A DNA stretch of 64,000 nt from Methanosaeta sp. PtaB.Bin018 (GTDB lineage Archaea; Halobacteriota; Methanosarcinia; Methanotrichales; Methanotrichaceae): positions 1-64,000 of the forward strand of contig MVQH01000101.1 of the NCBI GenBank assembly GCA_002067755.1, in the 5' to 3' direction. Both the position numbers and the translations under genes were made by a program. Below the pieces are notes generated by a model that saw nothing but the letters and a program-made list of their open reading frames with translations, ran no database searches and was not told the DNA's origin. Positions 467 to 14,842 of this stretch are shown piece after piece; position 1 is the stretch's first letter; every line of letters starts with the position of its first letter.

Positions 467-481
467 CGCTGAGGGTGAGAT
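467..481. repeat. Left attachment repeat (attL core) of the integrated element
   Basis: CGCTGAGGGTGAGAT is identical to 14725-14739, which is the 3' end (including G73) of the tRNA-Ser gene read on the minus strand. Similarity continues imperfectly for ten more bases (about 21 of 25). A direct repeat of a tRNA 3' end at the far side of an integrase gene is the classic signature of tyrosine-recombinase integration. The integrase gene begins 565 bases inside this repeat. Confidence 0.88.
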
Positions 482-493
482 ATTCACTCAATT

Positions 494-504: not shown

Positions 505-545
505 GTTTATATGCCTTCAGCACCCTACCACCATCAGGTGAGCAC

Positions 546-1058
546 GTGGTAAAACCCGACAGATCGCGATACATTTGGCTCTACTGCAAGTCAAAGGCGC
601 AAAAGGAGCAATGGCAGGCACTGGCAGAGAAGGCAAAGACGCCGCTATCTACATGGTGCGCTGCAATCATCGAGGAGAGGCTGGCCGAAGAGGAGAACGG
701 ATTTCGGCCACGGCATAAGATACTCAAAGACATGGAAGCCTTGAAGACCGAGAACAAGGCCCTTCGCGATGATCTCAGGCAGAAGGAGATCGTCTTAGAG
801 CGCTATGAGGCTGAACTGCGACGCTACCGAGCCGAACCCTTCCAGGCCGATCAATTCAAGGGAGTACGGAGCTACAGCAAAGAGCTTGTGGACATCCTCA
901 AGGCGCGCGGCCACGTGGGAAGCTATGAGATCCTGGAGCTGTTGGGCATTGGGCCGGGTGAAGCCGAGGCCATCAAGGCAGTGTCGAAGCAGTTGGAAGA
1001 GTTGGAGAAGTTCAACCTCATCAAGGCGGATGGCAAGGGTTGGCAATGGATAACCTGA
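546..1058 (+). CDS. Putative DNA-binding protein with coiled coil, coupled to the integrase
   Basis: 170 residues. The first about 50 residues look like a ribbon-helix-helix or similar dimerisation fold (alternating basic and hydrophobic residues, ending in IIEERLAEEE), residues 60-100 form a strongly charged coiled coil, and residues 105-170 look like a winged helix (…GIGPGEAEAIKAVSKQLEELEKF…). The GTG start at 546 follows a GGTGAG motif, and a TATA-like tttatat lies near 505-511. The 3' end overlaps the integrase start by 13 bases, so the pair is translationally coupled; a role in regulating or assisting recombination is inferred from that. No named family recognised. Confidence 0.7.
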   Translation: MVKPDRSRYIWLYCKSKAQKEQWQALAEKAKTPLSTWCAAIIEERLAEEENGFRPRHKILKDMEALKTENKALRDDLRQKEIVLERYEAELRRYRAEPFQADQFKGVRSYSKELVDILKARGHVGSYEILELLGIGPGEAEAIKAVSKQLEELEKFNLIKADGKGWQWIT

Positions 1059-1954
1059 TAGAAGACTTCCTCCAAGACCTTGAACTGAGTGGCAGGACAG
1101 AAGGGACCGCCAGGCATTATAGGAGCTGCTTATCAGTGTTCATGGAGTACCTGGATGGCAAGAATGCCCTTGATGTGGACAAAGAGACGTTGCGGGGATT
1201 CATCGGCCATTTGAAAGTTCAAGGGACGGCCACAAAGACGATTGAGAACTACTTCTCGGTGCTCTCCAGCTTCTACGAATATTTAGCCTATGAGGGAGTG
1301 ATGGCAGCAAACCCAGTCCTTGCAGTCAGGAAGCGATACCTCAGGCGCTACAAAGATAATGATGATGGCCAGGCTCGCAAGCTCATTTCTGTGGAGGATA
1401 TGGCCAACCTGATCAACTGCACTATGGACATCAGAGACAAGGCGGTAATCACCCTCCTGGCGAAGACCGGCATAAGAAGGCACGAACTGGTAGATCTGGA
1501 TGTCTCAGACGTGGACCTTGTGGAGCTGAGCATCAGGCTGAAGCCTACAGCCAAGAGGACGAACCGGACGGTATTCTTTGATGATGAATGCTCTTTCATC
1601 CTCAGGCGGTGGCTTGCGGTTCGCGATGGCGTGAATAAGAAGGGCATCCAGGCCCTATTCATCAATGCAGATGGAGAGAGGCTCAACCGGTCAGGAGTCT
1701 ATAATCTTGTGGTCGAGGCTGCCAGGCGGGCAGGCCTGCATGACCCCACATCGGATCGCCTGGAGGACCACTTTGGGCCGCACTGTTGCAGGCACTGGTT
1801 CTGTACTCACCTCTTCCGGGCCGGCATGAGGAGAGAGTTCATCAAGGAGCTGAGGGGCGATAGCAGGAAAGAGGCGTTTGACCTGTACAACCACATAGAC
1901 CTCAAGGAGCTGAAGGAAGCCTATCTGGCGTGCATACCGCAGTTGGGGATCTAA
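1046..1954 (+). CDS. Tyrosine recombinase (integrase)
   Basis: 302 residues, XerC/D-like. An N-terminal SAM-like core-binding domain (about 1-90) is followed by the catalytic domain. The first catalytic Arg lies in TGIRRHEL (about residue 143), the H-x-x-R box in GPHCCRHWF (about 246), and the nucleophilic Tyr in DLYNH (about 281). The position before the Tyr that is usually His/Trp reads LRGDS, which I recall from some archaeal integrases. A TTG six bases upstream is possible, but ATG 1046 matches the family start better. The gene sits just inside attL, fitting insertion of the 14.3-kb element at the tRNA-Ser gene. Its stop overlaps the convergent small gene by four bases. Confidence 0.92.
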   Translation: MDNLIEDFLQDLELSGRTEGTARHYRSCLSVFMEYLDGKNALDVDKETLRGFIGHLKVQGTATKTIENYFSVLSSFYEYLAYEGVMAANPVLAVRKRYLRRYKDNDDGQARKLISVEDMANLINCTMDIRDKAVITLLAKTGIRRHELVDLDVSDVDLVELSIRLKPTAKRTNRTVFFDDECSFILRRWLAVRDGVNKKGIQALFINADGERLNRSGVYNLVVEAARRAGLHDPTSDRLEDHFGPHCCRHWFCTHLFRAGMRREFIKELRGDSRKEAFDLYNHIDLKELKEAYLACIPQLGI

Positions 1955-2220
1955 TCTCCAAGAACTTCTTTGATTATCTTTTCGATTTCTGCCTTTTTCT
2001 GTGGATTCAAAGACACATGCAGCCCGTATCCAGTCTGTTTAGGTATCAACAGGCCTTCGGTGATCAGATCTTCGGCGGCGTCCTTGGCATCGCCCCTAAG
2101 GTGTTTAGGCATGCTCTTAGGGAGGTCGTCAAAGGCGGTATGGCTTGCACCCCAATTACCACGCCTACGAAGTTTTTTCAATATCTGCGCCTTCAAAGTT
2201 GGCATCATCTCTGCTACCAA
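1951..2220 (-). CDS. Small conserved archaeal protein, winged-helix-like
   Basis: 89 residues with a pattern I recall from archaeal small proteins: basic N-terminus, RRGNWGASH-like loop, KSMPKHLRGDAKDAAEDLITEGLLI helical stretch and a GYGLHVSLNP wing near the C-terminus. A winged-helix nucleic-acid-binding fold is likely. The TTG at 2220 is preceded at four bases by GAGGTGA; ATG 2208 is the alternative. It is convergent with the integrase and divergent from the regulator at 2377; the intergenic region is AT-rich with TATA-like elements for both directions. Possibly the excision or repression factor; this is inference from position. Confidence 0.68.
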   Translation of the reverse strand: MVAEMMPTLKAQILKKLRRRGNWGASHTAFDDLPKSMPKHLRGDAKDAAEDLITEGLLIPKQTGYGLHVSLNPQKKAEIEKIIKEVLGD

Positions 2221-2376
2221 CGATTCACCTCTGTATTGAGACGATTTTATTAATTATATTCGTGTATGCTTTTTAAAACAATATCGGTAAAGTATTTAAA
2301 CCTTGTTCATCTTCTAAGTTACCAGGTAATTTTCATCGACCACGCAGAGAGACCAATGAAAGAGGAGGTTAAATTA

Positions 2377-2811
2377 ATGGAAAATTCCTTGTTCATTAGA
2401 GAGCTTGGAATTAAGAGCCCGATGCTGAAAGTGCTGGACTTCTTTATGGACAACGAGTCCTTCGACTACTCAAAGACCGACATAGCAGAGGGCGCGGGGC
2501 TGAGCAGGGCCACATTATTCAAGGTGTGGCCCCGGCTGGAGGCGTTGGCACTCATCACGGCCACCCGCACTGTGGGGCAGGCCAAGATGTACCGACTCAA
2601 CAAACAGAATCCCATAGTCAAGAAGCTCATGGAGCTGGACGACGCGATCTCTGAACACTTCGCCCTGAAGCACCAGGAAGCCGATGAGCCGCAGAAGGTG
2701 ATCGAGGAGGTCATAGCTCCTGGCCGGAACCTGATCAATGCCATCGTGGATTATGAGAACGATCCACCAAGTGACAAAAGAGACCGGCCTGAAGAGCTGC
2801 TATTGGCCTGA
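2377..2811 (+). CDS. Winged-helix transcriptional regulator
   Basis: 144 residues from ATG 2377, which has a near-perfect Shine-Dalgarno (gaggaggt, 2363-2370); the longer upstream frame is ignored for that reason. Residues 10-85 form an archaeal winged helix: [12 protein letters not shown], then [21 protein letters not shown] as the helix-turn-helix, then QAKMYRLNK as the wing. The C-terminal 60 residues are acidic. A TATA-like element (agtatttaaa) lies at 2291-2300. It forms a two-gene operon with the basic 50-residue protein 23 bases downstream. I recall this gene pair from other methanogen genomes, often in accessory regions; the target is unknown. Confidence 0.78.
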
Positions 2812-2833
2812 AGAGCCACTGGCGGGATGGCTA

Positions 2834-2986
2834 ATGGCAAAGAAAGCATCGAGCGGCCTGTATCGGGCGGCCAGGACCGCCAGGGACATCGAAGTGCTGG
2901 CGAGCGGAGACCCGGAGAAGATCGTCCGAAGAGCCAAGAACAAGCTGCTAGGGCGGCTGCTGGCGAGGCTGAAGATATGGCGGTGA
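2834..2986 (+). CDS. Very basic 50-residue protein of a family recurrent in methanogens
   Basis: Starts [16 protein letters not shown], continues with [20 protein letters not shown] and ends in a Lys/Arg-rich helix ([10 protein letters not shown]). I recall this short pattern (ARxxxDxxxxxSGDPxKIxRRxKNKxxGR) as a conserved small protein of methanogenic and other archaea of unknown function. ATG 2834 is preceded by GGGATGG. It follows the winged-helix regulator by 23 bases and is probably co-transcribed. The charge suggests nucleic acid or membrane-surface binding; no further function can be assigned. Confidence 0.7.
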
Positions 2987-3043
2987 GCCCTCGCCAAACT
3001 TGAGAAGGAAGTAGCACAAAGCGAAATACTGAAGGACGAAAAA

Positions 3044-3057
3044 TTGCCAATTGGCAA
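3044..3057. other. Perfect 14-bp palindrome in intergenic space
   Basis: TTGCCAATTGGCAA reads identically on both strands. It lies 58 bases downstream of the small basic gene and about 130 bases beyond the 3' end of the convergent zinc-domain gene. An operator for a dimeric regulator is possible, but no start codon lies close by. Apart from this palindrome I see nothing functional in 2987-3184. Confidence 0.35.
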
Positions 3058-3184
3058 CGTACTATTAGAAGGAGCCTTGTGCAATCTGCTTTTCTGAAGC
3101 CACGAAAGACGCCCAACTTTGGTTGGAAGCAAAATGCAAAATATGCGCTGTGGACTGCTGGCACGCCGGAAGAGAAGCGGATGG

Positions 3185-3799
3185 CTATTTTGTCTCTCCG
3201 GGCAATTTCGCCAACTCGCCGTTCCAGCTCCTCACTCGCCCGTGGTCCCCTCCATAACGGTCCCCCCAAAAAGAATTGCCTCCGTAGTGCATAGTGAATT
3301 CGAAATCGCCCGAAGCCGCGCCCTCGTGCCACGTGCCGACCAAAGTGTCAATTTCTGTCTCCGACATCTTGCCCTCGATCGTTCCGCCAGGGTACGTGCC
3401 GACATATCTTATGCCCTCTTCCACAATCTCGAGCTGGCCGAACGTTGTTTTCCAAACACCTGCCCAGTTGGGTGCGATATATGTGTCTATTAGATAACCT
3501 ATCTTCATCTCTTTCGTCTTGAGATATGAATCAAGCTGGGATGTGAAATCATCACTCAGATGGTAGGCATCCGGCGCGCGTCCGGATTTTCCTGTAGGAT
3601 CTCTCGTTGTCTTCTGAAGGGCTCCTTTCAATTCCAGCTTGTCAATATGGTTTCGAACTGTCCTTTCGGCAGAGTCTTGTTTCGGTAGTAGCAGTCTTGC
3701 TTCTTGATGGCATTTCGGACATACTCGTTTTGAGTTAGCAGAAAGTGTGAAAATATGCCCGTTATCACAGGAATATTGATGCAGCAATGCGGAGGTCAA
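3185..3799 (-). CDS. Zinc-finger and winged-helix protein with a C-terminal beta-barrel-like repeat domain
   Basis: 204 residues from the TTG at 3799. Residues 10-32 contain a C-x6-H plus C-x2-C arrangement (CDNGH…CPKCH), a probable zinc finger. Residues 42-95 are winged-helix-like (SAERTVRNHIDKLELKGALQK). The C-terminal about 90 residues carry the GVWKTTFG-xn-GTYPGG-xn-GTWHEG pattern seen in small extracytoplasmic or ligand-binding beta-barrel proteins. The same frame stays open upstream to a stop at 3965-3967 and reads protein-like (VRPEDFIREKHDNK, then LNHLYLL) without any ATG, GTG or TTG; the true start may be a CTG at 3910-3908 or may have been lost. A TATA (cttatatatt) lies near 3941-3949. 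Confidence 0.62.
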   Translation of the reverse strand: MTSALLHQYSCDNGHIFTLSANSKRVCPKCHQEARLLLPKQDSAERTVRNHIDKLELKGALQKTTRDPTGKSGRAPDAYHLSDDFTSQLDSYLKTKEMKIGYLIDTYIAPNWAGVWKTTFGQLEIVEEGIRYVGTYPGGTIEGKMSETEIDTLVGTWHEGAASGDFEFTMHYGGNSFWGDRYGGDHGRVRSWNGELAKLPGETK

Positions 3800-4000
3800 T
3801 TCACGTGCTGACCGAGGGTCATGATTTCGGAGTAAGTAAAGATGATTGAGAATCGCGAAATCAACCTTGTTATCATGCTTCTCCCTGATAAAATCTTCCG
3901 GTCTAACCAGGATAACACCCTTTACTGCTAATTGTTGAAAATATATAAGCCTTCTTTTCAGAAATTAATTTAAATATGTGAATATTAATGGTTGGTGTTG

Positions 4001-4153
4001 GTGAGCACGATAATGAAGATTCGGTCAGTGAATGGCTCTCGTTATCTCGGGGTCCCCAAGGAGCTAGTGAAAAAATTACGGTCCGACTACATGACTGTGA
4101 GGGTTGATGATGCGGGTAGACTGATCTACACCCCCCTTCAGGAGGTTGCATGA
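4001..4153 (+). CDS. SpoVT/AbrB-type small DNA-binding protein
   Basis: 50 residues from GTG 4001 (or 46 from ATG 4013). The sequence IMKIRSVNGSRYLGVPKELV followed by MTVRVDDAGRLIYTPL is the swapped-hairpin AbrB pattern: short basic strand, a V-P-K-E-L helix start, then V-x-V-D-D-x-G-R-L-I. Such proteins are transcription factors or antitoxins. The TATA-like aatttaaata near 3967-3976 lies about 28 bases before the GTG, so the message may be leaderless. Its stop (TGA 4151-4153) overlaps the next ATG as ATGA, starting a chain of overlapping small genes that leads to the primase. Confidence 0.66.
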   Translation: MSTIMKIRSVNGSRYLGVPKELVKKLRSDYMTVRVDDAGRLIYTPLQEVA

Positions 4154-4242
4154 AAAATAGAATACGCTGCGAGTGTGGTAGCACTCGCAAGGCGGGCGGC
4201 TCTCCAGATCCAGCAACAGGAGTTACCGGTAATGTTCTATAA
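4150..4242 (+). CDS. Possible 30-residue peptide, coupled
   Basis: ATG 4150 overlaps the preceding stop (ATGA) and has a strong Shine-Dalgarno AGGAGGT about five bases upstream, the best ribosome site in this cluster. The reading frame is short, MKNRIRCECGSTRKAGG and so on, with a C-x-C near the start, and ends at TAA 4240-4242, overlapping the next gene by 11 bases. It may be a real microprotein or a translational-coupling leader for the gene at 4232. Confidence 0.35.
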   Translation: MKNRIRCECGSTRKAGGSPDPATGVTGNVL

Positions 4243-4501
4243 CTGCAATGAATTTAAGCCTATCTCAGATCCCGAACCCCACCATCCGCAAAACCTGGAT
4301 GAGGTGCGAGGAATTCCGCTCAGAGTCTATGTCAAAGATGGCTTCTGTATAGCGGTTTTTGCATGGGGCGCGATCTCACTGCCTTCGGAACTGGAGGCCA
4401 GGCTGCGCGAACTTGTGGGACATAACATCGCTTGCTTGCGATTTGACGGCAAATTCCACATTCGCGACCTCGATCAGGAGAGCGATGGCACTGCAAGATA
4501 G
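4232..4501 (+). CDS. Small protein of unknown function
   Basis: 89 residues from ATG 4232 (GGAG ten bases upstream). An earlier GTG at 4175 in the same frame has no ribosome site. The middle (IPLRVYVKDGFCIAVFAWGA) looks like a beta hairpin, followed by a helix (SELEARLRELVGHNIACLRF) and a terminal strand. No family recognised. It overlaps its neighbours on both sides (11 and 17 bases) and so belongs to the co-translated cluster upstream of the primase. Confidence 0.55.
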   Translation: MFYNCNEFKPISDPEPHHPQNLDEVRGIPLRVYVKDGFCIAVFAWGAISLPSELEARLRELVGHNIACLRFDGKFHIRDLDQESDGTAR

Positions 4502-4661
4502 CGACTGGCGCGAGTCCGAGACCTGTGCCAGAGCTTGCAGCGAGTGCGGCGGCTTCATTCGGCGATCATTGGATGAGGACTCCTTGAAATTCTTCAGCAG
4601 TGACACGCTTTGCCACTGCTGCAAATCGCGTTCGCCGTGGGCAGAAGGAGGGCGGTCCTGA
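4485..4661 (+). CDS. Small zinc-ribbon-like protein
   Basis: 58 residues. The Cys pattern C-x3-C-x2-C (ETCARACSECGG) and C-x2-C (LCHCCKS) is consistent with one zinc site. ATG 4485 has GGAG seven bases upstream and overlaps the previous gene by 17 bases; its TGA overlaps the next ATG as TGATG. Proteins of this type are common next to replication genes of archaeal viruses, often as regulators; the specific role is unknown. Confidence 0.55.
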   Translation: MALQDSDWRESETCARACSECGGFIRRSLDEDSLKFFSSDTLCHCCKSRSPWAEGGRS

Positions 4662-4798
4662 TGCGTGGCGAATGCCCCATTAGAGGAAAATGCATCGCGA
4701 AGCGGTGCCTGCCGTGGATCGCGAAGCAGTATGATGACTATCCCGGGGAGTGCATTCTCAACCGGCTCATAAGACTAATCCAGATCGGGAGGCTCTAG
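4661..4798 (+). CDS. Cysteine-containing 45-residue protein
   Basis: MRGECPIRGKCIAKRCLPW and so on, with four Cys (C5, C11, C16 and C31 approximately), enough for one zinc or metal site. ATG 4661 is in TGATG overlap with the preceding gene, and the TAG stop is immediately followed by the ATG of the next gene. Too short to classify. Confidence 0.5.
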   Translation: MRGECPIRGKCIAKRCLPWIAKQYDDYPGECILNRLIRLIQIGRL

Positions 4799-5080
4799 AT
4801 GCGACTCAGCGGCAATGAAAGGCCCGGCGAATGGCCGTTTGAGGGAGAACATAAGTGCATAGTCTGTGGAGGGGGACCTTCTGCGATTTGGCGAGGGCAC
4901 GGTATTCTCTACATCTGCCCACATTGCGCGAGGGATATTCTCCCACGGCTGATTGCTGATGCTTTGACTCCAGAGGATTCTGTATACGGGACAATTCTCG
5001 ATAATTTCCGAAGCCTGGAGACCCCATATTTGCAGGCAGCGTTATGTAGGGTAGCCGGGCCTGGAAGACGGAAGGAGTGA
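4799..5080 (+). CDS. Zinc-ribbon protein upstream of the primase
   Basis: 93 residues. Two CxxC knuckles (HKCIVCGG about 18-26; YICPHCARD about 38-46) give a canonical zinc ribbon; the remainder is helical. It starts directly after the previous stop and overlaps the primase start by four bases (ATGA). A DNA-binding or primase-accessory role is inferred from coupling and the zinc ribbon. Confidence 0.62.
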   Translation: MRLSGNERPGEWPFEGEHKCIVCGGGPSAIWRGHGILYICPHCARDILPRLIADALTPEDSVYGTILDNFRSLETPYLQAALCRVAGPGRRKE

Positions 5081-5553
5081 TGTTCTCTCCAGAGTCCATC
5101 CCATTTGAGCTTAAAGCCCTGGATCAGTGGTGCGTCTACCGGTTGGAAGAAATCAATGGCCAAAGGACAAAGGTTCCGTATCAGCTCAATGGACAGCGGG
5201 CGAGTTCGACCGATCCAAAGACTTGGACTTCATTCAATGCAGCTCTGGCAGCATACCAGGACCTTGAGGGCTATGATGGGATATGCGTCATGCTGACAGT
5301 GGAGAACGGTATCGTCTTCATCGATCTCGATGACAGCATGGAGGATGACGGCACTATCAAGCCGTGGGCTCTGGAGATCGTAAAAAATTTTAATTCCTAC
5401 ACCGAGCGGTCTCAAAGCGGCCGAGGCCTACATATCCTGATTAGGGCGACAAAACCAGGCCCTAGATGCCGATCATCCAAGTATCCACATCCTATCGAGA
5501 TCTACAGCCATTTTCGGCAGTGCTGCCTTACGGGTGATCTGGTGGTGTTCTGA
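5077..5553 (+). CDS. Primase-polymerase (prim-pol) N-terminal domain, ended by an in-frame TGA
   Basis: 158 residues. The start LKALDQWCVYRLEE, then KVPYQLNGQRASSTDPKTW, matches bifunctional primase-polymerases of plasmids and viruses (archaeo-eukaryotic primase fold). The metal-binding acidic motif is FIDLDD (about 82-87), followed by SGRGLHIL (about 114-121) and EIYSHFRQCCLTGD (about 139-152). In relatives this domain continues with a PATIE-type motif and a helical domain. Here that continuation (ATIEPRQEQLNVLYHEIFGE) is present in the same frame directly after TGA 5551-5553. The gene is therefore either split by a nonsense codon or read through. Synthesis of primers for element replication is the expected role. 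Confidence 0.8.
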   Translation: MMFSPESIPFELKALDQWCVYRLEEINGQRTKVPYQLNGQRASSTDPKTWTSFNAALAAYQDLEGYDGICVMLTVENGIVFIDLDDSMEDDGTIKPWALEIVKNFNSYTERSQSGRGLHILIRATKPGPRCRSSKYPHPIEIYSHFRQCCLTGDLVVF

Positions 5554-8500
5554 GTGGCCGCTACCATTGAACCACGCCAGGAGCAGCTTAACGTTCTCTA
5601 TCATGAGATCTTTGGCGAGGAGAAGCGGCAACAGACACGACCGCACACAAACAAATCTCATGTACTGTCAGATGATGCCTTGATCCTTAAAGCGACCCTG
5701 GCGAAGAATGGCACCGAGTTCAAGGCGCTGTGGGATGGCTCGATCCTCGGTTACAACGGCGATGACTCCGCCGCAGACATGGCCCTCATGAACATGCTGG
5801 CTTTTTGGACGGGCGGCGATGCTGTTCAAATGGAGAGGCTATTCTCCAGGTCGAATCTCGGACAGCGGGCCAAATGGTGGGACCGGGCCGACTACAGGGA
5901 GCGAACCATCCAGAAGGCGATCTCCAAGGCCAGGGAGTTTTACGAGCCTCCGAAAGATGATAACAACGGGGCGGCATCGAGCCACGAGAAGGCGGCCGGA
6001 CTGACCTCATCGGAGATCCTAGAAAAGGTCGAGGCTGACCCGAGGGCACTCAGAGATCCTGAGATCCTGGCGGGCCTGGCAGCACTGAAGAGAGGAGACC
6101 CGATAGAATATGACCTTCTCGTCGATGGCATCAAAAAGGCTCACAGAGGGCTCAGAGTTGACACCATCCACGCCTTGGTTGACAGGTATATCCAAGCGCA
6201 TGTGAAGGTCGCAGAGAAACCCACAGAGACACACGATGATATCAAAGCTAAGGCACTTGCCATCGCCGAACGAGGAGACCCAGTAAAATACCTGATATGG
6301 CAGGCTCAGAGAAACCACACCGGAGACATTGATTATCAGAAGGTGCTCATAGCGTCCATAGCCTCGGCGGCCAGCCAAACAAGCAACGGCATTCAGCCAG
6401 GGGGCACAGGTGAAAAGGGGAGCGGAAAAAGTGATGCTTGCACGGCGGTCTATCACCTGGTTCCTCCAGATCGCAGGCTCGACGGCTCATTATCGCCTAT
6501 GAGTTTGTTCTATCTGCAGGAGACTGGGCGGCTTAAGCCTGGTATGATCCTCTTTTCGGACGATGTGGAATACGAGCCGATAATTCCGATTTACAAAAGG
6601 TCGACGGCCAGGTTCCAGCACGGCATAACTCATTTTTCCGTGAGCGGCGGCAAAGACAGACACGGAATAGAGCTCAAAATTCCGCCCCGAATTGTTTGGT
6701 GGCTGACCTCAGTTGAGGGTGTGGCGAACGAGCAGGCGTTTGATAGGCAATACCCGATCAGCACCGACTCAAGCCCCGAGCATAAGAAGCGAGTGGCCCA
6801 CGAAATCTCCGCAAGGAGAGCCCGCAAAGAACTGAGGCTTGCGGACGATGAAGGTATCGAATTTGCGAGGGAGCTCATAGAGGACATTTTCGCAAACGGC
6901 CCATTCAAGGTGCTTATCCCACAGGCGGAGAGGGCGAAATGGCTGAAGGTATCCGACTTTCGAGGGCAGGAACAATTTTGGGATCTAGTGGATGCCTTGG
7001 TGATCCTGCGATGGAGGCAACATGAACGAGGCTCCGATGGATGGCTGATCGCAAAAGATGAAGACCTCATCGAAGCGAAGGGCATCCTGGCGCGCCACAA
7101 GGTGGCGCATTTTGCGGACCTCACAGAAGCGGAGGTTAAGGTCGTGGGGGCCATGTCTTCTGGGCTCCCCATGACCCAGAAGGATCTTACCGAAGCACTT
7201 GGGATCGCACAAAGCACCCTCTCAGAACGGCTACGATCCATTATGGCAAAGTCTGCTATCATCACAGAGGACCACGAGGGCGGCAAGAAGGTCTATACTC
7301 TCAATCCACAGATGCAACTAGGAAAAGAATACTGGCTAAACCTTGACCTCATAGACATAAAAACAGATATTAGTGAGACTTATTGTAGGCCGCAGATAGC
7401 GTTATCGGGCTGTTATCGGTATGTTATCGGTATACCTATCGGTATAATAATCAATAACAGTAATAGGATTCCTAATAGTTTATCGGTAGATAAGCAGGGG
7501 AGTATAGAGAAAGGATATCCCTGCGACGACTGTGGAAAGTGCCCTCTGAGAGAATACCATTCTATACTCTCTCCGCCGAAAAAGGCCGATAACGACCCAA
7601 ACCAGCAACAAGAGCCGTTATTTGACACCGATAACCTCGTCGATGATAGGACCGATAAGACCAATAACGCTATCAGTGAAAGCACCAATGTACAAATAAG
7701 ACAATCATCCGACGCTGTGGTTGGTGCGGATGGCGTAGAAAATCAGCCCGCTCTCGGCCCGCATCCACGCAGGGATGAGCCCACGCTCAAGGCGATCTAC
7801 CGGCCGGGAGGCTCTGCCCTGGAATACGCACCCTTTGCGTTGAATCTTCACCAAGGATGTTCTCACAACTGTGAATATTGCTATGCCAGAAGCCTCACCC
7901 GCAAATCCCGCGAGCAGTGGAAGAGCGATTGTAATATTCTCACAAAGAAGGCCACTCTGGCCAACATCGAGGCCGATTTGAAGGGCTGGCAGGGAGAGAG
8001 AAAGCCCGTTCACCTCACTTTCATGGGTGATCCCTACGACCTAGGCAGGCAGGAGAATAGCTACACGCGAACTGTTCTTGAGCTGTTCAAGAAGTATCAT
8101 CACCCCTTCCAAATCCTTAGCAAGGGCGGCATGAAGGCAGCACGGGACTTCGACCTGTACTTTGAAGGCTGTCGATTCGGGTGTACTCTGACTTTCAACA
8201 ACGATAAGGACTCTCTAGAGTGGGAGCCAGGTGCAGCACTTCCAGCCGATCGTATAGCAGCCTTGAAAGCTGCCCATGCAAAAGGAATCCAGACATGGGT
8301 GAGCCTGGAACCTGTGATAGCTCCAACTCAAACCCTGGCACTGATCGAAATGACTCATGAGTTCGTGGATCACTATGGCGTGGGCAAGTGGAACCATGAT
8401 GCCCGGGCCGACTCGATCGACTGGCCGAAGTTCAGAGCCGATGGTGAAGAGCTTTTAAAGAAATTTGGGAAGCACTACATGATAAAAGATGACCTGAAAA

Positions 8501-8787
8501 AAGCGGCACCGTGCACTGACCAGCACGAGCCCACACCAGGAGGTGAGACGGTGAAAAGACCATTTTGTTACTTAGCGAAGCTTCGAACTTTGGCGATGAT
8601 GGAATACGGTATGAACGGTTGGGTGAATCCCTCCAAGATCGCGCCCAAGTGCGGCCTTCTGGAGTGCCAGGCCTGTCGCGGGCTGTTGCATCTCGGATAC
8701 GTCCAGTACACGCGATCAGACGGCTCTATTGCCTACCGCCAGAAGCGGACAGATGAGTATCAACAACCCGGGAGGGCCGAGGCATGA
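5554..8787 (+). CDS. Primase C-terminal/helicase fused to a radical SAM (SplB-like) domain
   Basis: 1077 residues in one frame, starting at a GTG right after the TGA that ends the prim-pol ORF. Residues 1-130 continue the primase (TIEPRQEQL, then a primase C-terminal-type helical domain ending near KAREFYEPP). A P-loop lies at about 284-294 (GTGEKGSGKSD) with an acidic Walker-B-like DDVEYE near 335: a helicase/ATPase. A winged helix spans about 523-582. A variable linker follows with CDDCGKC (about 657-663). Residues about 735-985 are radical SAM: CxxxCxxC cysteines at 769, 773 and 776 (CSHNCEYC), then MGDPYD and LEPVIAP motifs of SplB/COG1533-type enzymes. The last 78 residues carry further cysteines (CGLLECQAC) and may also be made from GTG 8551. 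The fusion is unusual. Confidence 0.82.
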   Translation: MAATIEPRQEQLNVLYHEIFGEEKRQQTRPHTNKSHVLSDDALILKATLAKNGTEFKALWDGSILGYNGDDSAADMALMNMLAFWTGGDAVQMERLFSRSNLGQRAKWWDRADYRERTIQKAISKAREFYEPPKDDNNGAASSHEKAAGLTSSEILEKVEADPRALRDPEILAGLAALKRGDPIEYDLLVDGIKKAHRGLRVDTIHALVDRYIQAHVKVAEKPTETHDDIKAKALAIAERGDPVKYLIWQAQRNHTGDIDYQKVLIASIASAASQTSNGIQPGGTGEKGSGKSDACTAVYHLVPPDRRLDGSLSPMSLFYLQETGRLKPGMILFSDDVEYEPIIPIYKRSTARFQHGITHFSVSGGKDRHGIELKIPPRIVWWLTSVEGVANEQAFDRQYPISTDSSPEHKKRVAHEISARRARKELRLADDEGIEFARELIEDIFANGPFKVLIPQAERAKWLKVSDFRGQEQFWDLVDALVILRWRQHERGSDGWLIAKDEDLIEAKGILARHKVAHFADLTEAEVKVVGAMSSGLPMTQKDLTEALGIAQSTLSERLRSIMAKSAIITEDHEGGKKVYTLNPQMQLGKEYWLNLDLIDIKTDISETYCRPQIALSGCYRYVIGIPIGIIINNSNRIPNSLSVDKQGSIEKGYPCDDCGKCPLREYHSILSPPKKADNDPNQQQEPLFDTDNLVDDRTDKTNNAISESTNVQIRQSSDAVVGADGVENQPALGPHPRRDEPTLKAIYRPGGSALEYAPFALNLHQGCSHNCEYCYARSLTRKSREQWKSDCNILTKKATLANIEADLKGWQGERKPVHLTFMGDPYDLGRQENSYTRTVLELFKKYHHPFQILSKGGMKAARDFDLYFEGCRFGCTLTFNNDKDSLEWEPGAALPADRIAALKAAHAKGIQTWVSLEPVIAPTQTLALIEMTHEFVDHYGVGKWNHDARADSIDWPKFRADGEELLKKFGKHYMIKDDLKKAAPCTDQHEPTPGGETVKRPFCYLAKLRTLAMMEYGMNGWVNPSKIAPKCGLLECQACRGLLHLGYVQYTRSDGSIAYRQKRTDEYQQPGRAEA
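7401..7668. repeat. Iteron-like array: TTATCGGT repeats, then inverted ACCGATAA copies
   Basis: Plus-oriented copies (G)TTATCGG(T) start at 7401, 7412 and 7423 with exact 11-bp spacing, then CTATCGGT (7436-7443) and TTATCGGT (7480-7487). Inverted copies CCGATAAC (7586), ACCGATAAC (7627), ACCGATAAG (7651) and the variant ACCAATAAC (7660) follow. The array coincides with the poorly structured linker between helicase and radical SAM domains. Spacing of one helical turn and opposing arms are typical of initiator binding sites; an origin is inferred. Confidence 0.6.
8538..8551 (+). promoter_or_regulatory. Internal strong Shine-Dalgarno and in-frame GTG
   Basis: AGGAGGTGA (8538-8546) sits four bases before GTG 8551, which is in frame with the 1077-residue ORF (codon 1000). 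Initiation here would make a separate 78-residue cysteine-containing protein. It is among the best ribosome sites in the element, so either an internal product exists or the small gene was once separate and lost the stop in front of it. Confidence 0.5.
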
Positions 8788-8981
8788 CCTCTCTTCTTGA
8801 CTTCTGTGGGAGGCCTATTCTCAGGAGGCGGAGAGCCTGACAGAACCCGAAGCCCTGCATCAGGCGCCGCCAATTCCTATTGGAGCAACTATCAAAGGCA
8901 GCAGACGAGATCAGGAAAATAGACAAACGGCTGGCCTTCCTTTTGGGCGGCCGAAAGCCTGGAGCAGGAGGCGAGGCATGA
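8784..8981 (+). pseudogene. Small coupled ORF interrupted by in-frame TGA
   Basis: ATG 8784 overlaps the fusion gene stop (ATGA) and has GGGAGGGCC upstream. The frame reads MTSLLDFCGRPILRRRRA, then TGA 8838-8840, then continues open for 46 codons (QNPKPCIRRRQFLLEQLSKA… KIDKRLAFLLGGRK) to TGA 8979-8981, which overlaps the next ATG. The two halves together would give a basic, helical 65-codon protein with coupling at both ends. A TTG at about 8880 could allow independent translation of the second half. This is the second in-frame TGA in adjacent element genes. Confidence 0.4.
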
Positions 8982-9124
8982 AGGGCAAGAATCGAACGAG
9001 AATAGCCAGGCGCGATATCATGCGAAGCCTTGCGAAGAACGCCGTGAGGAAGGCCCGGCAGAGGGCAGCCTATGACCGGAGGCAGTATGACGGCCATGGT
9101 GAAACCCCGTCCGTGGAGGCCTGA
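8978..9124 (+). CDS. Small very basic protein
   Basis: 48 residues rich in Arg/Lys (RTRIARRD, NAVRKARQRAAYDRRQ). ATG 8978 is preceded by GGAGGCGAGGC and overlaps the upstream stop; its TGA is directly followed by the ATG of the next gene (TGAGATG). The charge suggests nucleic-acid binding. No family recognised. Confidence 0.5.
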   Translation: MKGKNRTRIARRDIMRSLAKNAVRKARQRAAYDRRQYDGHGETPSVEA

Positions 9125-9125
9125 G

Positions 9126-9638
9126 ATGGTCCGAGCATGTACGATCTGTGGAGATCCACAGCATGACGAAATCGATAGGCGGATCATTAGGGGCGATTCA
9201 ATCGCGGGAGTATCACGGGATTTCGCGGTATCCGAGGATGCCCTCGGAAGGCATGTAAAAGCAAACCACCACATCCGAGATGTGACGGCAATACCGACAT
9301 CAGCAGAGCTAGCAACGTCCGAAGATATCTACAAGGAAATAGAGAAGTGGCATGCCGAAGCTAAGGACCTTCAAAATATGGCAAAGTCGAACGGCGACAT
9401 TAAGACTGCTCTGTTTGGACTGGAAAAAGCTTTGAAATGCCTGGAGCTGCTGGCCAAGATCCACGGCCAGATTCGAGAGCAGAATGTCAACGTCAATCTC
9501 ACGCAAGTCAACATCTACAATTCTCCCGAGTGGCAGGCTGTGGGCTCGCTCCTGGCCAGGATCTTAGCCCCATATCCTGAGCTGAGGGCTGAGGTTGCCA
9601 GGGAGCTTCTTGCCCTGCAGGAGGCCCAACGGCCATGA
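9126..9638 (+). CDS. Small-terminase-like protein with zinc knuckle and HTH
   Basis: 170 residues from ATG 9126 (GGAGG about seven bases upstream); ATG 9072 and 9087 are in-frame alternatives without a better site. The N-terminus (RACTICGDPQHDEID) has a C-x2-C-x4-H knuckle, followed by a helix-turn-helix (RGDSIAGVSRDFAVSEDALGRHV). A long helix and coiled region follow (about 65-130), ending in a conserved-looking ARILAPYPELRAEVARELL. Its position directly before, and four-base overlap with, the terminase ATPase gene suggests that it recognises DNA for packaging. The assignment is by context and architecture, not by a named family. Confidence 0.66.
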   Translation: MVRACTICGDPQHDEIDRRIIRGDSIAGVSRDFAVSEDALGRHVKANHHIRDVTAIPTSAELATSEDIYKEIEKWHAEAKDLQNMAKSNGDIKTALFGLEKALKCLELLAKIHGQIREQNVNVNLTQVNIYNSPEWQAVGSLLARILAPYPELRAEVARELLALQEAQRP

Positions 9639-10405
9639 GCCTTCGAGATGCGGCATTCAAGCTCGATCCGGTGCTGTGGGCTAAGGCGGCCCTGGCCTAC
9701 CACCCGGACGAATGGGCTGTAAAAGTAATGATGAGCCCGGCCCGCTACGTCATCGAGAACGTGAGCAGACAGGCAGGGAAGAGCACTTGTGCGGCTGCTA
9801 TGGCCGTGCATGAGGCGGTATTCTTTCCTGGGTCTCTCGTGCTTGTGGTGAGCCCCACATTGAGGCAGTCTGGAGAGCTCCAACGCAAGTGTCTGAGGTT
9901 CTACGATCTGGTAGACCCTCAGCATAAAGGGCTGGCAGAGGATACAAAGCTGTCCATCCAGCTTGCCAATGGCTCGAGGATCATAGCTCTGCCCGGCCAG
10001 GAGGATAACCTGCGAGGCTACAGCGCACCATCGCTCATCATCGAGGATGAAGCTTCAAGGGTGAGCGATGACCTATATACGGCCATCCGGCCAATGCTGG
10101 CGACGAATCAAGGGCGGTTGATTCTTCTTTCAACCCCCAACGGCAAGACCGGTCATTTTTACAAGATCTGGACCGAGGGCGGCCCGGAATGGCTGAAGAT
10201 CAAGGTCACTGCTGACGAAATTCCGCGAATAACCAAGGAGTTCCTGGCCAATGAGCGGCTAAATATGACAGAAGGCCAATACCGTCAAGAGTATTTTGGT
10301 GAGTTCATGGAGGCGGAGGGCGCGGTCTTTAGCTCAGACCTGTTCCGGTCGCTTGCGAATTCCTCTATAAGTCCATTGAAATTACGAGGTGATGAATCGT
10401 GGTAA
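9635..10405 (+). CDS. Terminase large subunit, ATPase half
   Basis: 256 residues. The terminase-type P-loop is SRQAGKST (about residues 44-51), followed by VLVVSPTLRQS and a Walker B/catalytic LIIEDEAS (about 134-141). The coupling motif LLSTPNGKTGHF (about 165-176) is also typical of large terminases. The protein ends soon after the usual interdomain point (FMEAEGAVFSSDLFRSL) and lacks the nuclease domain, which is the next gene. Start ATG 9635 overlaps the small-terminase-like gene. This half would pump DNA during packaging. Confidence 0.85.
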   Translation: MSLRDAAFKLDPVLWAKAALAYHPDEWAVKVMMSPARYVIENVSRQAGKSTCAAAMAVHEAVFFPGSLVLVVSPTLRQSGELQRKCLRFYDLVDPQHKGLAEDTKLSIQLANGSRIIALPGQEDNLRGYSAPSLIIEDEASRVSDDLYTAIRPMLATNQGRLILLSTPNGKTGHFYKIWTEGGPEWLKIKVTADEIPRITKEFLANERLNMTEGQYRQEYFGEFMEAEGAVFSSDLFRSLANSSISPLKLRGDESW

Positions 10406-11097
10406 TGGTCATACCGGAAGTTAAAAGATACCTGATTGGCTGCGACCTGGCGAAGTCCTTAGATTTCACCAGCTTCGCAGTTATCGAGATGGTCTATGAG
10501 ACGAAGATCAAGGGCTTTGTCTACCATCTGAGGGCCCTGGACCGCATAAAGGGCGTGGACTATCCAAAGATCACTGAGCTCATAATAGCCACCCTGCAAA
10601 GGCTTCAGCAAGAGCCTGGCACAACTGACGGCCCGCACATCTGCATGGACGCATCGGGCCTTGGCGCTCCGATTCGGGATTATCTGCTGCAGTCGGGTGT
10701 GATCAATGGCCTGATAGGCCTATATCCTGTTGTTTTCACGGGCGGTGAAGCCGCGCGCTTTGATAAGGTGACCTTCAACTACAACATCAGCAAGAGCCTG
10801 ATTATATCGAATTTTCTGAGCCTGATGCAGCGCGGGCGGTTTGACTACAGCCCCGGCCTGGATGCATTGCCGCTGCTGCAGCAGGAGATCGCATCGTTCA
10901 AGTACCATCTGACGGCCTCGGGCCATACCGGCTTTGATGCCGAGGTCGGGGCCCATGATGATCTCATCTGCGCCATATGCATACCGCTGATCATCGGCGA
11001 GTGGCAGTTCCCGGTGCCGCCGGAGTATGAACGGGATGAGTCTCCAGACCTCTATGAGAGCATTCCTGACATAGGTGCCTACTTGGGCCCGTATTGA
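10399..11097 (+). CDS. Terminase large subunit, RNase H-like nuclease half
   Basis: 232 residues from GTG 10399, with its own Shine-Dalgarno GAGGTGAT (10387-10394) inside the end of the ATPase gene. The nuclease motifs are present: YLIGCDLAKSLDFT (first Asp, about residue 16), ICMDASGLGAP (second Asp, about 81) and GAHDDLICA (third Asp cluster, about 190). So the nuclease looks intact and independently translated rather than a random frameshift product, although the two halves are a single protein in most viruses. The seven-base overlap with the ATPase gene implies stoichiometric production. Confidence 0.84.
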   Translation: MVMVIPEVKRYLIGCDLAKSLDFTSFAVIEMVYETKIKGFVYHLRALDRIKGVDYPKITELIIATLQRLQQEPGTTDGPHICMDASGLGAPIRDYLLQSGVINGLIGLYPVVFTGGEAARFDKVTFNYNISKSLIISNFLSLMQRGRFDYSPGLDALPLLQQEIASFKYHLTASGHTGFDAEVGAHDDLICAICIPLIIGEWQFPVPPEYERDESPDLYESIPDIGAYLGPY

Positions 11098-11102
11098 GGC
11101 AG

Positions 11103-11264
11103 GTGAACGAATTGAATGGTAAAAAAAGGGAAACAATGCGAAAAGCTGGTGTAGAGTTCAGATTGAACGCGGATGAGGGCTGTGAGGGCTCAGAACCCCT
11201 ACAGGCGGAAAGTGGCTGGCATCTGGGGCAGGCGTGGACACTGAGGACTTGCTCGCCGCCCTAG
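11103..11264 (+). CDS. Possible 53-residue ORF
   Basis: GTG 11103 follows the terminase stop by five bases, with an AGGCAGGTG context. The frame reads MNELNGKKRETMRKAG and so on, to TAG 11262-11264. Composition is unremarkable and no family is recognised. It may be spurious. Confidence 0.25.
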   Translation: MNELNGKKRETMRKAGVEFRLNADEGCEGSEPLQAESGWHLGQAWTLRTCSPP

Positions 11265-11311
11265 CTTTTTTTGGAGCCCTGATGCTGCTCTTTTGGGCAT
11301 TTGGTCTATGA
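11234..11311 (+). CDS. Possible 25-residue single-span membrane peptide
   Basis: GTG 11234 opens MDTEDLLAALAFFGALMLLF followed by WAFGL and TGA: an acidic N-terminus and one hydrophobic span of about 18 residues. It overlaps the previous ORF in another frame and is the last plus-strand frame before the convergent secreted-protein gene. A holin-like role is conceivable from position after terminase but unsupported. The rest of 11312-11376 shows nothing. Confidence 0.3.
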   Translation: MDTEDLLAALAFFGALMLLFWAFGL

Positions 11312-11376
11312 CATTTTCATCAAGCCGGAAAAGAATGCAATAGAACTTTTTGGAGAAAAAAGGGGCGGCGGAGGAG

Positions 11377-12357
11377 TCAAACTCTGACTACCTCCTCTAT
11401 CCATTCATCTTTTACCGGAGCAAGATAACTGATTCCTTCGCCCACATATGTCCCATTGATGGTTTTGTAGATAATTAGGCCAGTATCCACATCTCTGAAT
11501 ACACTGCTACCCACCTCAACAATTTCGTCTTTGTGGCTATCCAGATAGGAAGTATTGGCACTCCCGATGATTTGACCTGCTTCTTGGTCGGTTATATTAT
11601 TACCTCGGACCTTTGTTATGTATCCAGCAAAAGGCGCTCTAGGCCCGCCAGGCCACATCGTTTCGGACTCTTTTACATAGTATAGCACCTCGCTTTCAAT
11701 TAGTTCTCGCGTTATATCTCCATAAGGATAGTATCGGATAAGATCATGTATATCGGCTGGCGAACTGTCTCCAGGAACAAATGTTATGGAGGTTTTCGCA
11801 GAGTGATATTTGCTATTAATAGCTTCAACGGAAATTGGATTATATATCTCAATTGATTTGAAAAACTTCGCAGTCGACTCATCCCAGTTAGAGTTAATGG
11901 CTATTATGAGCGTATCAAGACCATCAAGTCTCACCACTGCAAGGGTTGTATTAATGTCGTCAGTAGCTATGCCAGCATCGAGACCGGATATGATTCTGGA
12001 TGCTGAACGGTTGGCGGTTGTATTAAAGAGAGACATTGTATTTATCGCTCTCTTTTCCCAATCAGCATCATCTGCATTGAATTGATCACTGTTTATGTGA
12101 ATAAATATAAGGATGGTTTCATTGCTGTTGCTGGTATTTGCCAGTGTAAATGTATCCGTTTCTGAGTCCCCATTCAACATCTCGAATGTTTTATTGTACT
12201 GATAGAAAGTCAAGTTATCAAACTGATGTGTGAAATTGACTTGCGCATATGTATCTGGACATACCATGATGCTATAGTCCTTGGAAGCTATACCTATACC
12301 CACAGTTACACTGGCCACAAGACACAAGAGCAACAGGACTGGTGCTGCATTTTTCAT
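11377..12357 (-). CDS. Secreted protein of unknown function carried by the element
   Basis: 326 residues with a clear signal peptide (MKNAAPVLLLLCLVASVTV, cleavage near residue 25) and no membrane anchor at the C-terminus. The mature part has many N-x-S/T sequons (about a dozen), as expected of a glycosylated archaeal surface protein. Residues about 50-190 form an alpha/beta unit and 200-326 a second unit; no family recognised. ATG 12357 follows GTAGGGAGGG. Its leader contains a perfect inverted repeat at 12373-12396. As the only exported protein in the element it is a cargo candidate, for example in surface modification or exclusion; this is inference. Confidence 0.75.
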   Translation of the reverse strand: MKNAAPVLLLLCLVASVTVGIGIASKDYSIMVCPDTYAQVNFTHQFDNLTFYQYNKTFEMLNGDSETDTFTLANTSNSNETILIFIHINSDQFNADDADWEKRAINTMSLFNTTANRSASRIISGLDAGIATDDINTTLAVVRLDGLDTLIIAINSNWDESTAKFFKSIEIYNPISVEAINSKYHSAKTSITFVPGDSSPADIHDLIRYYPYGDITRELIESEVLYYVKESETMWPGGPRAPFAGYITKVRGNNITDQEAGQIIGSANTSYLDSHKDEIVEVGSSVFRDVDTGLIIYKTINGTYVGEGISYLAPVKDEWIEEVVRV

Positions 12358-12372
12358 TTTATCCCTCCCTAC

Positions 12373-12565
12373 TTAATAGTTCCGTGGAACTATTAACTAA
12401 TTTTCTCTTCTCTCCCTCAAAAGCCTGTTTGTGGTATATTGCTCTCTTTTCTTCCTCTTCCTCAAAGTAAGGCATATATGGAATTTGGCAATTTCACGCC
12501 AAATTCTTGCTTTGGAGCAACCTTTGAAGAGAGGAGCAAAATTAGTTAGTAGTTCCGTGGAACTA
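12373..12565. repeat. Pair of related palindromes and a hairpin flanking an intergenic region
   Basis: 12373-12396 is a perfect dyad with 11-bp arms (TTAATAGTTCC / GGAACTATTAA) around GT. 12550-12565 repeats its core (TAGTTCCGTGGAACTA). The flanks are also related in inverse orientation (ATTAGTTARTAGTTCC), so the two sites form a larger inverted repeat around 12397-12549. Between them GAATTTGGC/GCCAAATTC (12481-12489 and 12498-12506) forms a 9-bp hairpin. The right palindrome overlaps the last codons of the upstream gene. Likely operators for one dimeric regulator, or ends of a small insertion. Confidence 0.55.
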
Positions 12566-13007
12566 ATTCAGACTTTAATATAATAACTGAATTCCTCTTG
12601 TCTGAGTGCAAAGGCTTGGTCTCCACGAAACTACAAATCTTGAGTAACTCTGAGAACCGTTCCTTGGAAAGGTGCATCCTCTTCCTGGCATCCTTCGCCA
12701 GCATCTTGCCGCCGTCGGCCACCAGAAGAGCTCTGAGTACTTCGACCCGGTCCCTCTGTGTGGGCTGTGGCTTCTTCCTGGCCGCATCTCTCAACTCGTT
12801 GATTAGCCGGAGCTGGATGAGCTGATTTTCCGAAAGAGTGCTCTGTGTGGCGGCCAGGGCAGCACTTTCTTCCTTCTGACGGACATAATTATCCTCCAAG
12901 GCACAAACTCGAGCATGCAAAGGCTGGATGGCCTTCTCGACCGCGTAGCTCACAGCGTCCCGGAACTGACCTGCCGTCAGGGTTATGAGCTGGTCATCGT
13001 TGAGCAT
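12546..13007 (-). CDS. Coiled-coil and winged-helix protein
   Basis: 153 residues. The N-terminal half (about 5-75) is helical and likely coiled coil (AGQFRDAVSYAVEKAIQPL and on). The C-terminal half (about 85-153) resembles a winged helix (RDRVEVLRALLVADGGKMLA, then KERFSELLKICSFVETKPL). ATG 13007 follows GAGGTGGCCTGCC, the same translational coupler used elsewhere in this operon. Its last codons run into the palindrome at 12550-12565. A transcription factor of the element is the best guess. Confidence 0.65.
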   Translation of the reverse strand: MLNDDQLITLTAGQFRDAVSYAVEKAIQPLHARVCALEDNYVRQKEESAALAATQSTLSENQLIQLRLINELRDAARKKPQPTQRDRVEVLRALLVADGGKMLAKDARKRMHLSKERFSELLKICSFVETKPLHSDKRNSVIILKSELVPRNY

Positions 13008-13125
13008 GGCAGGCCACCTCTAAAAAAGTGAGAGCTGCCAGTATCCTGGCCTGTCTCCATCTCTTGGCCACGTGGCGGCGATGGCTGGCATCTCGGCGGG
13101 CCTTCTTGCAGTTCATCGAGTGCAT
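12994..13125 (-). CDS. Small basic 43-residue protein
   Basis: MHSMNCKKARRDASHRRHVA and so on; rich in Arg/Lys/His in the first 27 residues, then a short hydrophobic helix ending LEVACHAQR. ATG 13125 overlaps the preceding gene by 13 bases, and the 3' end overlaps the next start by 14. The codons for its LEVA segment double as the GAGGTGGCC ribosome site of the following gene, which supports translation through this frame. Confidence 0.45.
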   Translation of the reverse strand: MHSMNCKKARRDASHRRHVAKRWRQARILAALTFLEVACHAQR

Positions 13126-13403
13126 GACCTCAGCTCTTTTCTCAGGTCATAGCGATGGCCAGGACGCTGCACAACGATGCCTCTCTCCTTCCGCATATTG
13201 AGCCTACGCAGCACTGCTTTGTCAGACAGGTTGAATTCAAACTCCAGATCACTCCTTTTGGCGGGACCTGTACTCAGAAGGTAGTGGCGGATTGCATCAA
13301 GCTCATTCTCGGTAGTCCTTGAAATAGTTGGATTTTTCGGGGACGATTCGGACAGGATCTTGAGAAGGTCCGCAAGCGAGATCTGAATCACGGCTCTGGT
13401 CAT
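13113..13403 (-). CDS. Winged-helix DNA-binding protein
   Basis: 96 residues from ATG 13403, which has GAGGAGG seven bases upstream and lies one base after the preceding stop (TGAGATG). Longer upstream starts in this frame overlap another gene and lack ribosome sites. Residues about 35-96 form a winged helix (ENELDAIRHYLLSTGPAKRS, then LEFEFNLSDKAVLRRLNMRK and a GHRYDL wing). Part of a coupled row of regulatory-looking genes; target unknown. Confidence 0.65.
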   Translation of the reverse strand: MTRAVIQISLADLLKILSESSPKNPTISRTTENELDAIRHYLLSTGPAKRSDLEFEFNLSDKAVLRRLNMRKERGIVVQRPGHRYDLRKELRSCTR

Positions 13404-13404
13404 C

Positions 13405-13581
13405 TCAGGCCTCCTCGTTGCATCTGCCATACTCATTTCTGAGCTTGGTATCTGCATCCCGAAGCACCGCCAGGATCTCGTCCACGTTTGAACCGCTCGC
13501 ACTGATCTCCCAATTGTAATTGCGGCTCTTCTGCAGACTGATCTTAATGGGCTGCTTGTGGCTGTCGACTATGGCTTCCAT
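13405..13581 (-). CDS. Small protein of unknown function
   Basis: 58 residues: an N-terminal beta-rich part (DSHKQPIKISLQKSRNYNWE) with a possible strand-turn-strand and a C-terminal helix (VDEILAVLRDADTKLRNEYG). ATG 13581 has GAGGTGGCC upstream and is one base after the previous stop; its own end GAGGAGGCCTGA forms the ribosome site and stop for the next gene. The pattern resembles short phage accessory proteins, but no family is recognised. Confidence 0.58.
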   Translation of the reverse strand: MEAIVDSHKQPIKISLQKSRNYNWEISASGSNVDEILAVLRDADTKLRNEYGRCNEEA

Positions 13582-13582
13582 C

Positions 13583-13738: not shown

Positions 13739-13739
13739 T

Positions 13740-13970: not shown

Positions 13971-13971
13971 C

Positions 13972-14325: not shown

Positions 14326-14358
14326 GTCTTTCCACCATATACTAAGTGCACTTGACAG

Positions 14359-14720: not shown

Positions 14721-14724
14721 TTTA

Positions 14725-14739
14725 CGCTGAGGGTGAGAT
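14725..14739. repeat. Right attachment repeat (attR core) within tRNA-Ser
   Basis: CGCTGAGGGTGAGAT, identical to 467-481. It spans the discriminator G73, the 3' acceptor strand and the start of the T arm of tRNA-Ser, so insertion kept the tRNA functional. Confidence 0.88.
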
Positions 14740-14842
14740 TTGAACTCACGAGGTGCTATGCACCACTGGTTGTCCCGTACCTGTCCCCTTTATGGAGCCA
14801 GGACCTCAAGACCAGCGCCGTAGGCCGCTTGGCTACCTCAGC
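14725..14842 (-). tRNA. tRNA-Ser (anticodon UGA) with a 33-nt intron
   Basis: Reading the minus strand from 14842: acceptor GCTGAGG/CCTCAGC, anticodon stem CTGGT/ACCAG, loop C-T-TGA-G-A with anticodon at 14808-14806, variable arm GGTGC-ATA-GCACC, T arm GTGAG-TTCAAAT-CTCAC and discriminator G73. Removal of 14772-14804 (33 nt, between positions 37 and 38, the canonical archaeal site) gives an 85-nt class II tRNA. G73 and the long variable arm indicate serine rather than leucine. CCA is not encoded. A TATA-like cttaaaag lies near 14871-14878, about 30 bases upstream. This gene is the integration target of the element. Confidence 0.9.

Follow-up and report, generated by a model that had tools for sequence, protein, structure and literature searches.

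A gene at 5554-8787 of a 64,000-nucleotide stretch of DNA from Methanosaeta sp. PtaB.Bin018 (contig MVQH01000101.1; the whole stretch is hereafter called the window) encodes a helicase and a radical S-adenosylmethionine (SAM) domain in one reading frame. This gene is best explained as encoding the helicase part of the initiator by which an integrated archaeal element of Methanothrix, about 14.3 kb long, replicates. The explanation, taken as a whole and with the role of the radical SAM domain included, is held tentatively, at slightly less than an even chance. An earlier note, written from the letters of this DNA, had described a primase-helicase joined to a SplB-like radical SAM domain in a single 1077-codon frame, and reading of the open reading frames (ORFs), domain profiles and structural models bear out this frame and its claimed parts. 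The ORF is unbroken from a GTG start and encodes 1077 amino acids (aa), with no stop codon in the 7400-7700 linker of the window frame, and a second Methanothrix genome, Methanosaeta sp. PtaU1.Bin060, carries the identical frame. Related loci are designated by L and a number. The features of the gene are the following:

5554..8787, plus strand: 1077-aa protein with helicase-binding domain, MCM-like AAA+ motor, winged helix, in-gene origin linker, radical SAM domain and winged-helix tail (domain profiles, models)
5767..5949, plus strand: NrS-1-type helicase-binding domain (HBD), aa 72-132 (PF22763, 72.5 bits against a cut-off of 27.9, E 2.5e-20; PDB 7ola, 6a9w)
6241..7068, plus strand: AAA+ helicase motor of MCM-like fold, about aa 230-505 (Walker motifs, model, Foldseek)
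7117..7287, plus strand: MarR/ArsR-type winged helix (aa 522-578) behind the motor, candidate for iteron binding (MarR_2 and HTH_metalloreg, both sub-threshold; MarR structures)
7395..7674, no strand: candidate in-gene replication origin (iterons, AT-rich stretch, synonymous conservation)
7522..7542, plus strand: CxxCxxC motif (CDDCGKC) in the linker, kept in L033 as CNDCGRC
7777..7784, plus strand: left 8-bp direct repeat GAGCCCAC, boundary of the radical SAM insertion
7786..8520, plus strand: radical SAM domain, aa 745-989, with CxxxCxxC at 7858-7881 (alignment of relatives, profiles, model, Foldseek)
8527..8534, plus strand: right direct repeat GAGCCCAC, exactly 750 bp from the left copy and in frame
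8563..8748, plus strand: C-terminal winged-helix tail, aa 1004-1065, common to primase-helicases without radical SAM (L034, L027, L037)

The PF22763 match relates the protein to NrS-1 PrimPol and to PDB entry 7ola, which we take to be SaPI5 Rep. Behind the HBD, Walker A (GGTGEKGSGKS) is found at 6400-6432 and Walker B (ILFSDD) at 6547-6564. When aa 151-615 were modelled (pLDDT 82.7), the best PDB matches of the motor in Foldseek were MCM2-7 and MCM subunits (E 2.9e-9), at a TM score of about 0.45, which is MCM-like and short of a true MCM. The motor is thus modelled as an MCM-like AAA+ domain followed by a winged helix. Taken together, these two parts are 83% identical between the window and L033, the nearest homologue, in which one unbroken frame runs from Prim-Pol through HBD and motor to the winged helix.

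The DNA between the winged helix and the radical SAM domain, which the earlier note had read as a Cys-containing linker, is probably a replication origin inside the gene. Three copies of GTTATCGG lie at 7401, 7412 and 7423 (7401-7430, 11-bp spacing), a further TTATCGG at 7480, and inverted copies CCGATAA(C) at 7586, 7628 and 7652, with an AT-rich stretch between the two iteron sets; the GC content of the linker dips to 0.37. Seven of the 14 TTATCGG sites of the window fall inside 257 bp of this linker, and synonymous recoding gave a mean of 0.73 copies and a maximum of 4 in 2000 trials, against the 7 observed. The same iterons are found in L033, with which the window has identical synonymous codons at 81% in the linker and 61% over the motor (p=0.0035). 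Iterons of other sequence occur in the same inverted layout, and at the same place in the primase-helicase gene, in L034, L037, L027, L005 and L010. The in-gene repeats are clear in L040, and L035 has degenerate TGCCCAnCA-type copies in its linker, seen by eye. More broadly, in-gene iterons, mostly in inverted sets and differing in sequence from element to element, were observed in the C-terminal linker of unrelated primase-helicases (L034, L037, L027, L005, L010, L042 and L040). Window and L033 have iterons and winged helix in common and differ in their tails; window, L034, L027 and L037 have the tail in common and differ in their iterons. Since the iterons go with the winged helix after the motor and not with the tail, this winged helix is the likely iteron binder. 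The tail had also been considered for this role and was set aside, as tail and iteron sequence do not co-vary.

The radical SAM core that the earlier note had described, with CxxxCxxC at aa 769-776 and the GDP and LEPV motifs, is present with its invariant residues intact. In an alignment of 51 relatives, the window domain keeps every one of the 15 invariant positions and 29 of the 30 near-invariant ones. The three cluster cysteines are kept in all 51 relatives, and the fused copies all keep them together with the 15 invariant positions and 26-29 of the 30 near-invariant ones. The core matches the profile of the phage radical SAM family phrog_13321 (E 3.3e-19, aa 749-977), which has no curated cut-off and no assigned function. 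PF04055 scored 28.7 bits for the whole window ORF, just below its cut-off of 29.5, and lies above the cut-off in L040, L035, L041 and L007. The window domain is below the cut-off of every named family tested: PA0069 (59.5 bits against 360), Rv2578c (48.4 against 430), rSAM_mob_pairB (28.1 against 410) and DUF5131 (23.5 against 28.9). The label "SplB-like" holds in the broad, COG1533-like sense, but not in the sense of spore photoproduct lyase (SPL). The SPL profile matches weakly (E 0.03), and the fold match to SPL (4fhc; TM 0.53, E 2.5e-6) is moderate, with SuiB, PFL-AE and lipoyl synthase matched alongside. The SPL motif AACTSD, in which the catalytic Cys (C140 in the Geobacillus enzyme) stands before a conserved Asp, aligns with cFxxD in the present family. 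Membership of SPL was rejected because 49 of the 51 members, the window included, have Phe at the position of this Cys, and because of the weak profile match.

Comparison with L034, which carries a different, DUF927-type primase-helicase, indicates how the domain is placed. The tail of L034 reads GPHPRKDEPTPG...FVCHLAKLR..., and the window radical SAM domain stands inside this motif, so that it appears as a 750-bp in-frame insert relative to the same tail in L034. The flanking GAGCCCAC repeats could represent a target-site duplication or the trace of microhomology recombination. L033 has the same motor, no radical SAM domain and a different tail, and the two genes diverge completely past the origin.

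The combination recurs in other genes. Candidatus Methanocrinis natronophilus Mx has two fusions, in which the radical SAM domain is C-terminal and at the same position in unrelated primase-helicases: L040 is a 1360-aa Prim-Pol/AAA+ protein and L035 a 1365-aa P4/D5-type primase. In both, the domain lies between the in-gene origin and the C-terminal tail, and a similar short tail follows it. In L041 (4517-7453, minus strand), on the host chromosome of another Methanotrichaceae genome, the domain forms the N-terminal part of a protein that continues as a RecQ-like helicase and has a GntX-like match at its C terminus. About 40 further relatives stand alone, and many of these are viral. In the tree the window domain groups with the free-standing chromosomal L007 and L036 (100/96), with L040 as sister (94/95), and L035 stands elsewhere; some forks are weak and L041 is on a long branch. 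The fusion probably arose more than once, since the tree nests free-standing genes among fused ones. Searches of IMG/VR with the whole window ORF and with the radical SAM domain and tail of L035 gave nothing useful, and a plasmid search gave distant PA0069-type matches only.

The neighbours of the free-standing genes were tallied in 43 loci, where the most frequent were ParB-like proteins (16 loci), SAM-methyltransferase-like proteins (9), C5-methyltransferases (7), terminases and integrases; methyltransferase and ParB PHROGs rank high in this tally. The SAM-methyltransferase-like protein that accompanies the radical SAM gene in those 9 loci is about 190 aa long (for example L057 5078-5656 and L112 3330-3899; motif seen by eye, no Pfam match). 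On viral contig L113 (1962-4754) two further genes, for another radical SAM protein and for a PAPS-reductase-like one (by eye, no Pfam match), come after the radical SAM gene, and the group is possibly a DNA or nucleotide modification cluster.

Directly upstream of the 1077-aa frame, and in the same frame, lies the primase part:

5077..5553, plus strand: Prim-Pol (archaeo-eukaryotic primase) domain, separate 158-aa ORF (PHROG DNA primase/helicase, E 2.7e-40)
5551..5553, plus strand: in-frame TGA, followed directly by GTG, parting Prim-Pol from the HBD-helicase; identical in the second genome

For the 5077-5553 ORF, PF09250 (Prim-Pol) is sub-threshold only. One TGA alone, absent in L033, separates the two ORFs, which may reflect a split gene, coupled re-initiation or read-through.

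Both ORFs lie in an integrated element, bounded by a 24-nt direct repeat with copies at 467-490 and 14725-14748. The element is taken to span about 467-14748, because the attR copy is the 3' end of a tRNA gene. Its other recognised features are:

467..490, no strand: attL-like copy of the tRNA gene 3' end (24 nt, 88% to 14725-14748; direct-repeat search)
1040..1954, plus strand: tyrosine integrase of the element (PF00589, E 3.2e-26; PHROG integrase, E 1.8e-37)
9072..9638, plus strand: putative small terminase subunit (position; weakly similar to its counterparts in L033 and L034)
9635..10405, plus strand: terminase large subunit, ATPase half (PF03237, E 2.3e-15; 44-82% to L033, L034 and L119)
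10399..11097, plus strand: putative nuclease half of the terminase large subunit, separate ORF (phrog_27743; same split in L033, L034 and L119)
14725..14842, minus strand: intron-containing tRNA gene whose 3' end, 14725-14748, is the attR copy (Rfam RF00005, 43.2 bits; ARAGORN with introns)

Two ORFs, one for the ATPase and one for a putative nuclease (phrog_27743), divide the large terminase subunit (TerL) between them in the window (9635-11097), L033 (7830-9268), L034 (91-1457) and L119 (6914-8363). Reading the split as decay of a provirus was rejected because the same split is found in these relatives. Elements related to this one in other Methanothrix genomes have a common core, consisting of a conserved protein (546-1058), the integrase, a protein at 4175-4501, the primase-helicase, the putative small terminase subunit and the split TerL. 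No capsid or portal gene was recognised in the element, in which several ORFs are without assignment and divergent structural genes may escape. With integrase, initiator, TerL and tRNA attachment site recognised, it resembles a phage satellite of PICI/SaPI-like type. Window 467-14748, L033 and L119 appear to form an element family of roughly 13-15 kb with integrase, primase-helicase and split terminase and no recognised capsid or portal gene; they are candidate archaeal phage satellites. L033 ends in a partial gene that agrees without a difference with the last 55 aa of the window gene at 12549-13007 (minus strand). The contig breaks seen in the second genome are probably due to DNA that such elements have in common. 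The earlier note did not report the Prim-Pol ORF, the linker iterons, the 8-bp repeats or the tRNA-integrated element.

From these data the following mechanism is proposed. The winged helix would bind the iterons within its own gene. Hexamers, loaded head to head on the two inverted sets, would open the AT-rich stretch, and priming of synthesis would fall to Prim-Pol. The tethered radical SAM domain may act on origin or fork DNA by means of SAM and its 4Fe-4S cluster, a step of which we are less sure. Its action would be modification of nascent or parental element DNA rather than repair; modification is favoured because the free-standing viral relatives often adjoin ParB-like and DNA methyltransferase genes. 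As the earlier note suggested, such a protein could couple the passage of the fork to the repair of lesions or the modification of bases. In its general form the proposal is that of an initiator class of archaeal mobile elements with its own radical-SAM chemistry beside an in-gene origin, coupling DNA modification to origin firing or fork movement and gained independently by several unrelated primase-helicases; this is put forward as possible, with more doubt than belief. Several points weigh against it. Contact of the radical SAM domain with DNA is something that we infer, and the host-chromosomal relatives L007 and L036 lie without replication or viral context. Primases exchange their C-terminal tails with one another, and the radical SAM domain could accordingly have come along as a passenger. 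The primase TGA and the lack of recognised capsid genes mean that the element may be partly decayed. Moreover, the fusion is rare: none of the 31 IMG/VR relatives is fused, and fused frames were found only in Methanotrichaceae, while all copies that the phylum-wide sample and the 31 viral contigs gave outside this family are free-standing (beyond Halobacteriota, fusions were checked through IMG/VR, genome contigs, phages and plasmids).

One important question is whether two genes were joined by an assembly chimera or a strain-specific accident. The short repeat at the insert boundary is a typical join site and the contig of the element is broken in the second genome, but 9,820 bp of PtaU1.Bin060 agree with the window except for a single mismatch at 2875, which is outside the gene (the two genomes, possibly from related samples, are not fully independent). 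Moreover, the module measures exactly 750 bp and is in frame, and similar fusions with different motors exist elsewhere. A strain-specific stop loss, for which homologues always encoded as two genes with a linker stop would have spoken, was likewise rejected: L033 lacks the radical SAM domain, and the two Methanocrinis fusions, with different motors, are single-frame. This alternative is largely refuted already and highly improbable. The main rival holds that the radical SAM domain was captured at a C-terminal module-exchange hotspot behind the origin and works as it does when free-standing, with no functional coupling to replication. It accounts for the likeness of window and L033 up to the origin and their divergence beyond it, for the same tail behind different motors and iterons, for the 8-bp repeats, which suggest a recombination or insertion event, and for nearest radical SAM relatives (L007, L036) that are free-standing and chromosomal. 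However, three primase-helicases whose motors differ carry the domain at one and the same position, it recurs in the RecQ fusion, its catalytic residues and frame are kept, and the nesting seen in the tree points to more than one fusion; mere capture is considered rather unlikely.

Replication-coupled lesion repair, in which the domain would reverse a photoproduct or other lesion as SPL does and let the fork pass, is clearly unlikely. In its favour, SPL is the best full-length fold match among DNA enzymes, there is the profile similarity to SPL, and SplB-type proteins are linked to SOS in bacteria (PMC3765255, PMC8565304). These likenesses are countered by the Phe in place of the SPL catalytic Cys and by scores for the named SplB-like families that are far below cut-off. 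Furthermore, UV lesions are an unlikely pressure for Methanothrix because it lives in the dark. The SplB annotation of the related Rv2578c family has itself been judged doubtful (PMC12924846).

If the domain does modify DNA, the preferred reading would describe a replication-coupled DNA modification system of new make-up. The searched literature gives no substrate for the phage radical SAM family, and we know of none for enzymes of the phrog_13321 type; the repeated joining of this domain to replication motors gives a hint that origin or fork DNA may be what it acts on. Candidatus Methanocrinis natronophilus Mx, with its two fusions, makes this idea testable in a named strain. In-gene iterons in several unrelated primase-helicases would also offer a simple route to the origins of archaeal elements. 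The earlier note knew no description of such a fusion, and none of a radical SAM domain in a primase-helicase was found in the searched literature, which left most subscription papers outside its reach.

In phage lambda the origin lies inside the coding sequence of the O gene, with its iterons in the linker between two domains. The window gene likewise has iterons inside an initiator gene, in an interdomain linker, but in two inverted sets, in an initiator that is itself the helicase, and in an archaeal host. As for free-standing relatives, phrog_13321 and the PA0069/Rv2578c-type proteins, which are the best NCBIfam matches, belong to the same core family with CxxxCxxC, DPY and SLEPV; they are free-standing, whereas the window domain is fused and scores far below the latter two cut-offs. 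With SPL (COG1533) the domain has in common the radical SAM core, CxxxCxxC and a moderate fold match, but it lacks the catalytic Cys and is weakly matched by the profile. The mobile-element initiators with an NrS-1-type HBD (NrS-1 PrimPol; 7ola) are alike in HBD, primase with AAA+ helicase, iteron origin (for SaPI origins, PMC7581432) and a satellite-like element with integrase and terminase. Their motor is D5-like, whereas that of the window is MCM-like; their origin lies directly downstream of the gene, whereas that of the window is inside it; and the window differs further in the Prim-Pol split off by a TGA and in the radical SAM insert. The pieces are thus all of known kinds, and what is new is their combination, its recurrence and the place of the radical SAM domain beside an in-gene origin.

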